Assembly (NCBI GenBank): GCA_947259315.1 | Contig: CAMYLR010000031.1 | Span: forward strand, 1-64,000 | Source of the DNA: an uncultured Gemmatimonadales bacterium | GTDB lineage: Bacteria; Gemmatimonadota; Gemmatimonadetes; JACCXV01; JAHWKZ01 | DNA: 64,000 nucleotides | Direction of reading: 5' to 3' | Shown here: in pieces, positions 1,174 to 2,654 of the stretch | How the letters are laid out: the number at the start of each line of letters is the position of its first letter | How positions within the stretch are numbered: position 1 is the first letter of the stretch | Notes under the pieces: generated by a model | Database searches by the model: none | What the model saw: the letters and a program-made list of their open reading frames with translations, nothing else | Told to the model about the DNA's origin: nothing | Program-made: the position numbers and the translations under genes

Positions 1174-1263
1174 TACGCACTCTCCTTTGGTTGACGGCGC
1201 TGGTCTACGTTACGAGGTTCGGCACCATTCGGGCGGTCACTCTCGTATACGGAGGACATTATC

Positions 1264-1917
1264 ATGGCGGCGACTTTAGAGCAGCGCCTCGCAGCGATCC
1301 GCGCGGCGAGCGAGAAACAGATCCCGGAAGACGCCCAGAAGATCATGCATCGCGTGACCGAGGAGCTGCAGCGATCCGGGCAAGCGGAAAAAGCGATCGG
1401 TGAGGGCGACCAGGCGCCCGCGTTCACGCTTCCCAATCAAGACGGGAAGATCGTCAGCTCGGATGAGCTGCTGTCACAGGGCCCGCTGGTGCTCTCATTC
1501 TTCCGCGGACACTGGTGACCCTACTGCAATCCAGAGCTGGATGCTCTGAACAAAGTCATTTCTGAGATTCGCGAAGCGGGTGGCAACTTGGTCGCCGTGT
1601 CGCCGCAGCTCCCTGAGAAGAGCCACGAGCTGATCGAGAAGTACAAGCTGACGTTCGACATCTTGCGCGACGAAGGGAACCAGGTAGCCACCGAGTACGG
1701 CTTGACGTGGGAGCTCCCGCAAGACCTGAGGGACGTCTACCTCGCGTTTGGCATCGACCTGCCGGCGTCGAACGGCGAATCGAGCTGGACGCTGCCGTTG
1801 CCAGCCCGCTACATCATCGATTCTTCGTCGGTGGTTCGTTACGCGCGGGTGGAGGCCGACTACACGCACCGGCCGGAGCCAGTCGAGACGGTGGAGGCGC
1901 TAAAGCGGCTCGCATAG
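1264..1917 (+). CDS. Peroxiredoxin-like (AhpC/TSA) protein, candidate selenoprotein with in-frame TGA at 1516-1518
   Basis: Read through TGA 1516-1518, this is a complete 217-residue peroxiredoxin-like (PRX-like, AhpC/TSA superfamily) protein. Residues before the TGA read LVLSFFRGHW and residues after read PYCNPELDALNKVI, in the same frame; family members have a Cys exactly here (RGxWCPYCN). The TGA is thus residue 85 in a U-P-Y-C redox motif with Cys88. Downstream family landmarks are intact: VAVSPQ, FGIDLPASNG..SWTLPLPARYIID and a conserved C-terminus. A perfect 6-bp hairpin with a G in its loop lies 13 bases after the TGA. Start ATG 1264 has GGAGG upstream. Expected role is reduction of peroxides or disulfides in the cytosol. 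A chance TGC-to-TGA nonsense mutation or base error is the alternative; selABCD are not in this window. Confidence 0.82.
1516..1548 (+). promoter_or_regulatory. Putative bacterial SECIS element just after the UGA codon
   Basis: After TGA 1516-1518, CAGAGC (1532-1537) pairs perfectly with GCTCTG (1543-1548) around the five-base loop TGGAT (1538-1542). Nineteen bases separate the UGA from the apical loop and the second loop base is G. That fits what is described for bacterial SECIS hairpins recognised by SelB (loop about 16-37 bases after UGA, G in the first two loop positions). The stem is short, so this is supportive rather than decisive. Confidence 0.6.
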
Positions 1918-2654
1918 TGCAAAACGGCGCCCGAGTGCGGCCCGACGCGTCTCCAGTCATGTATCAGAGCTGGCGCGACCTGCTGTTTCTGCACTGGGAG
2001 TGGGATGCGGACGAGCTCCAACGCACGTTGCCGGAAGGTCTGCGCGTCGACCAGCACGAGGGTCAGTGCTATCTGGGAGTCGTGCCGTTCAAAATGCGTC
2101 GGGTGCGTCCGCGTTTTGTACCGAACGTGCCAGGGATCTCCAACTTCTTGGAGCTCAACCTTCGCACGTATGTGTATGACGGCAACGATACTCCAGGCGT
2201 GTGGTTCTATTCGCTCGACGCTAACCAGCGGTTGGCGGTCACCGTCGCCAGACGGTTCTTCCATCTGCCGTATCACTGGGCGCGAATGGAAATCATCACA
2301 GACGACGAAGATGTGATGACGTACACGTCGGCTCGCGGCGGCGATCCGTCGGTGGAGGATCGTTATCGCTATCGGGGGATCGGATCAAAGCGGCGTGCCG
2401 AACCCGGCTCGCTGGAGTTCTTTTTGCTGGAGCGTTACGTGCTGTTTGCCGATACGCCGCGCGGGTTGCAGGCCGGTCGCGTGTACCACGAGCCGTACCC
2501 GTTCCGTGACGTCGAGTTGCTCGATTGGGACGAGCAACTCTTTGCGCTAGACGGCTTCGAGCCCCCGCGACGTGCTCCCGATCACGCTGTCATATCGCCT
2601 GGCGTCGACGTGTCGGTCTACGCTCTGGGGACGACGTCTAGTAACTCTTCCTAA
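1917..2654 (+). CDS. DUF2071 / YqjF family protein
   Basis: The protein shows the DUF2071 pattern: near the N-terminus VMYQSWRDLLFLHWE and LPEGLRVDQHEGQCYLGVVP, then FLELNLRTYV, GVWFYSLDANQRLAV, ARRFFHLPYHWARM, and the C-terminal LERYVLFA / VYHEPYPF segments. Function of the family is unknown. The start is uncertain: GTG 1917 overlaps the TAG stop of the peroxiredoxin gene, GTG 1935 and ATG 1959 are in frame, and relatives have a few residues before VMYQ, favouring one of the GTGs. Probably co-transcribed with the upstream peroxiredoxin-like gene. Confidence 0.8.
   Translation: MQNGARVRPDASPVMYQSWRDLLFLHWEWDADELQRTLPEGLRVDQHEGQCYLGVVPFKMRRVRPRFVPNVPGISNFLELNLRTYVYDGNDTPGVWFYSLDANQRLAVTVARRFFHLPYHWARMEIITDDEDVMTYTSARGGDPSVEDRYRYRGIGSKRRAEPGSLEFFLLERYVLFADTPRGLQAGRVYHEPYPFRDVELLDWDEQLFALDGFEPPRRAPDHAVISPGVDVSVYALGTTSSNSS

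Follow-up and report, generated by a model that had tools for sequence, protein, structure and literature searches.

The window, by which we mean the whole 64,000-nt stretch of DNA analyzed here, contains a gene for a peroxiredoxin-like (Prx-like) protein in which one in-frame TGA is followed by a hairpin resembling a bacterial selenocysteine (Sec) insertion sequence (SECIS) (Table 1). This TGA is the single internal stop in the frame 1264-1914 and falls within the sequence FFRGHW-U-PYCNPEL. An earlier note on this DNA had described the gene as intact save for a TGA at its first active-site Cys codon; our translation of 1264-1917 agrees, and the coordinates and the numbering of the motif as residues 85-88 given there are correct. 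The ATG is preceded, at a distance of ~9 nt, by a Shine-Dalgarno-like GGAGG. A match to AhpC-TSA (PF00578; E = 4.9e-29, residues 48-193) in the read-through product continues unbroken across the TGA. NCBIfam returned nothing above a cut-off, and a PHROGs match was weak and uninformative. A crude scan of the window for further readthrough candidates missed even this gene, and we disregard it.

Table 1. Features of the Prx-like gene and their positions in the window.
Feature	Position	Strand	Basis
GGAGG, probable ribosome binding site	1251..1255	+	by eye
Prx-like selenoprotein gene (predicted), 217 residues, Sec at residue 85	1264..1917	+	translation, PF00578 match, homologue alignment
N-terminal helical extension, residues about 2-45, before thioredoxin-like domain	1267..1398	+	AlphaFold2 model
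Probable Sec-UGA codon, U85 of U85-P-Y-C88 motif	1516..1518	+	alignment of Sec and Cys homologues
C88 codon, proposed resolving partner of U85	1525..1527	+	Cys in 44/44 aligned homologues
Bacterial SECIS-like hairpin	1532..1548	+	stem 1532-1537 with 1543-1548, loop UGGAU 1538-1542
Stop codon TAG of Prx-like gene	1915-1917	+	translation

The same interruption recurs in related genes. Within a sample of 395 genomes of the phylum, 40 genomes besides that of the window contain close homologues interrupted by an in-frame TGA (identity 36-48%, E no higher than 1e-24), two of these matches being mere pieces at contig ends. In a codon alignment of 30 Sec genes (the window gene and 29 others) and 13 Cys genes, the TGA occupied the identical codon in all 30 Sec genes, within the motif R-G-x-W-TGA-P-Y-C, and pieces of a homologue from genome G265 showed this same motif. 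The 13 homologues from outside the phylum, drawn from Myxococcota, Pseudomonadota, Cyanobacteriota, Bacteroidota and Actinomycetota, all carry TGC or TGT there, so that TGA and Cys codons do alternate at residue 85. The earlier note had remarked that a nonsense mutation would need to hit precisely this codon; the presence of the TGA at the same codon in the 29 aligned genes of other genomes excludes chance. In a tree of these sequences, the Sec rows and the Cys rows cluster and the window sequence joins a Cys row at 84/48; because the deep branches are weak, the tree does not settle the number of Cys/Sec switches. Against the reading favored below, the other genome of the same genus yielded no match, though it is just 79% complete, and the one of the same family gave weak matches only.

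The genes that the earlier note had singled out as the ones to look for (selA, selB, selC, encoding tRNA-Sec, and selD) are all present in the source genome, a 2.4 Mb draft in 33 contigs with a completeness of 95.8% and a contamination of 0.94%. We obtained matches to selA (472 bits; cut-off 268), selB (372 bits; cut-off 242), selD (366 bits; cut-off 125) and tRNA-Sec (75 bits; cut-off 47), and ARAGORN reads the same tRNA as SeC with the anticodon tca. Rfam and tRNA searches of the window alone returned no matches, the Sec genes being located on other contigs. In selD (L023, G000:C6:214406-215329) the active-site loop reads CAG*ASKL, with the TGA in frame, and the product is predicted to be a Sec-containing selenophosphate synthetase; besides the Prx-like gene, the genome would therefore hold an independent selenoprotein gene whose kind is already known. 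Across the phylum sample, selA was matched in 290 of the 395 genomes and in 41/41 of those with the TGA form (the match in G334 being weak), and the TGA form was found in 0 of the 105 genomes lacking selA (Fisher P = 2e-6, uncorrected for relatedness). Of 12 genomes having the Cys form, 9 contained no selA above cut-off.

The SECIS-like hairpin, which the earlier note does not mention, lies 14-30 nt 3' of the UGA and consists of a 6-bp stem (CAGAGC/GCUCUG) and a 5-nt loop with a G at loop position 2, with a spacing of 19 nt between UGA and loop and an energy of -10.0 kcal/mol. The published bacterial SECIS model describes a loop of 3-9 nt, a stem of 4-16 bp, a G in the first two loop positions, a spacing of 16-37 nt and an energy of at most -7.5 kcal/mol (2026 review, PMC13188914), and the window hairpin conforms to it throughout. 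When compared with shuffled sequences over 46 nt, its energy was unexceptional (z = -1.2). Among 22 sequences, the four inner stem pairs are almost invariant, the fifth still pairs in 14 (A-U or G-U) and is disrupted in 8, and at the outermost pair there are five compensatory cells and nine breaks. As the shuffle score is unexceptional and the two outermost pairs are often broken, support for the hairpin comes from comparison between genes and not from energy: all 30 Sec genes have the core GAGC(N5)GCT[C/T], whereas none of the 13 Cys genes does. The Ala codon at +9, in the 3' arm, is GCT in every Sec gene against a background use of 0.02-0.44 in representative genes, which otherwise prefer GCC and GCG, and the product of the background frequencies over 13 representatives under 75% identity is ~1e-13. 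The Glu codon is likewise GAG in 30/30, the corresponding product over 13 representatives being ~0.002.

These comparisons bear on whether the UGA encodes Sec at all. Given that the window comes from a single genome, assembled as a draft of 33 contigs, the TGA could have arisen from a Cys codon by nonsense mutation in a pseudogene, or be a sequencing or assembly error, but this is exceedingly improbable and in practice refuted by the conservation of the TGA in relatives: the 29 further genes contain no other stops, their downstream sequence is conserved, and the hairpin is confined to the TGA forms. An open frame beyond the UGA would also be seen if this codon were read as another amino acid, such as Trp or Cys, through a changed code or non-programmed readthrough. 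We regard this as very unlikely, as the UGA occurs solely at the catalytic Cys and the Sec machinery is complete; moreover, TGA terminates 23 of the 45 long open reading frames of the window and is the commonest stop there, and there is therefore no genome-wide reassignment of TGA. A different question is whether the hairpin is merely a by-product of protein conservation (E-Q/L-x-A-L) while another element drives Sec insertion. The residues of that helix are indeed largely conserved and covariation in the stem is modest, but the synonymous choices at the Ala and Glu codons are fixed against a GC-rich background, and where a Cys homologue has Ala at the hairpin position its codon is mostly GCA, GCC or GCG, which makes this account improbable. 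We conclude that UGA 1516-1518 very probably encodes Sec, as alignment and genome content indicate and as the earlier note had suggested; the comparative support for this reading consists of a TGA kept at one codon, its exchange with Cys, a hairpin that constrains codon choice and the co-occurring machinery, together with the predicted fold.

An AlphaFold2 model built from 13 sequences (mean pLDDT 94.6, pTM 0.90) predicts a thioredoxin/peroxiredoxin fold in which N-terminal helices precede the thioredoxin-like domain, and no signal peptide is evident in the window protein. The solved (PDB) structures that best match the model are Bcp/PrxQ, AhpE and ResA. By sequence alignment, U85 lies opposite the first Cys of WCPYC in the thioredoxin-family protein 3hdc, and Cys88 lies opposite the peroxidatic Cys of Bcp (2cx3).

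The protein could act on either of two kinds of substrate. A true peroxidase, with ROOH attacked by Sec85 or by Cys88 (the residue at the peroxidatic position) and the remaining one of the two resolving, is a tenable though less favored reading of the same Sec protein; PrxQ/Bcp and AhpE are the top matches in both sequence and fold, Cys88 aligns with a peroxidatic Cys, and selenols are fast with peroxides. However, the family lacks the PxxxT(S)xxC motif of peroxiredoxins, with R81 and U/C85 at the P and T places in 44/44 homologues, and the active-site Arg that precedes a late β-strand, placed by alignment to one AhpE-like paralogue, was found in 0/44. Residue 180, which takes the place of this Arg, is Pro in 30/44, Thr in 12/44, and otherwise Ser or Ala; it would also correspond to the cis-Pro place of a thioredoxin-fold WCxxC site, which reads WUPYC here, and thioredoxins likewise have Pro where peroxiredoxins have this Arg. 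The active site therefore appears closer to the CxxC of thioredoxins than to a peroxidase site, and since both the motif and the Arg are missing from all 44 homologues, we favor a thioredoxin-like thiol/selenol oxidoreductase over a classical peroxidase. The designation of the protein as peroxiredoxin-like in the earlier note accordingly holds for the fold and fails for the defining catalytic residues.

We consider it highly likely that the gene encodes a thioredoxin-fold Prx-like selenoenzyme, probably cytosolic, in which hairpin-directed decoding of UGA supplies a nucleophilic Sec85 and Cys88 serves as resolving residue. SelB and tRNA-Sec would decode the UGA under the direction of the adjacent downstream mRNA hairpin. 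The selenolate of Sec85, which sits where a thioredoxin CxxC has its attacking Cys, would act on a disulfide or, with somewhat lower probability, a hydroperoxide; Cys88 would resolve it by forming a selenenylsulfide (Sec-Cys) intermediate, whose reduction may fall to a thiol donor, for example thioredoxin.

Sec-containing thioredoxin-fold proteins are known from surveys, as the earlier note had stated while being unsure about this exact form. The Sargasso Sea survey (2005) reported a family of Prx-like selenoproteins in which TxxU is replaced by a thioredoxin-like UxxC (PMC1088965), the GOS survey (2008) listed 225 sequences of Prx-like 1 (PF00578, UxxC; PMC2398784), and the 2026 review includes a Prx-like thiol:disulfide oxidoreductase (PF00578, UxxC), a UxxC form of the Redoxin family and a UxxS form of cd02970 (PMC13188914). 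Representatives listed in that review include WP_010940744.1, HEU0032618.1 and MDX2448127.1. Judged by domain and motif, the window gene fits the known Prx-like UxxC class: it shares the Pfam domain, UxxC in place of TxxU, the commonness of Cys homologues and the logic by which Sec is predicted. It appears to differ from the published members in its N-terminal helical extension and F-[FY]-R-G-x-W-U-P-Y-C signature. The class itself has been described since 2005; in the genes compared here the SECIS core is strikingly uniform across one phylum. The N-terminal helices and the signature could define a distinct Sec-dependent subfamily, used near-exclusively in its Sec form by this phylum and in a Cys form by cyanobacteria, proteobacteria and Bacteroidota, in which Sec confers peroxidase activity without the peroxiredoxin residues; we regard this combination as unlikely.

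Other families share part of this architecture. Sec peroxiredoxins (PrxQ/Bcp, TxxU) have the same fold and Pfam family, but their Sec is peroxidatic and lies three positions later, at the place of Cys88, and their PxxxTxxC motif and Arg are absent from the window protein. PRX_like2 (cd02970) proteins, like the window family, are Prx-like with CxxC and without the peroxiredoxin triad, but the cyanobacterial motif IFTExxYCPFCxPH (PMC3514251) differs from the FFRGxWCPYCN of the window family, and the Sec form of cd02970 is UxxS (PMC13188914) whereas the window gene has UxxC. The thiol-disulfide oxidoreductases TlpA/ResA combine a thioredoxin fold with a CxxC whose first Cys is the nucleophile, as proposed here. 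TlpA/ResA proteins are exported; the window protein, which lacks an evident signal peptide, differs from them in this respect and in its extra N-terminal helices.

Inspected by eye, the genes flanking the Prx-like gene vary between genomes (SnoaL-like and DUF2071 in the window, beta-lactamase-like and others elsewhere), and we saw no conserved neighbors pointing to a pathway among the loci viewed. Because the neighbors differ, we make no operon argument. The DUF2071 (COG2071) gene at 1959-2654 (+) lies just 3' of the Prx-like gene and shows no conserved link to it in the viewed loci.

Standard gene callers would truncate the product at residue 84 or begin it beyond the TGA, where 1588 is the first start codon; redox selenoproteins of this Sec-rich phylum may therefore be misannotated. 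The very regular GAGC-N5-GCTC hairpin should be useful for testing bacterial SECIS rules, and the set of Cys and Sec homologues offers clean material for asking what Sec adds to a CxxC site.

Further genes deserve mention. A PrxQ-like gene (L078, G013:C2:453663-453983) has NFTPG*NRQL, the classical TxxU selenoperoxiredoxin pattern. A second clade in the same phylum (L075 and L076, in G067:C2 and G303:C35) also carries a TGA in VFYRGHW*PYC behind a hydrophobic, signal-peptide-like N-terminus, and is probably an exported Sec relative. Finally, a more distant homologue from the phylum (L077, G244:C1:1168369-1168992; 29% identity) has the Cys form RGAWCPYCN although selA is present in its genome, providing a natural Cys/Sec comparison.
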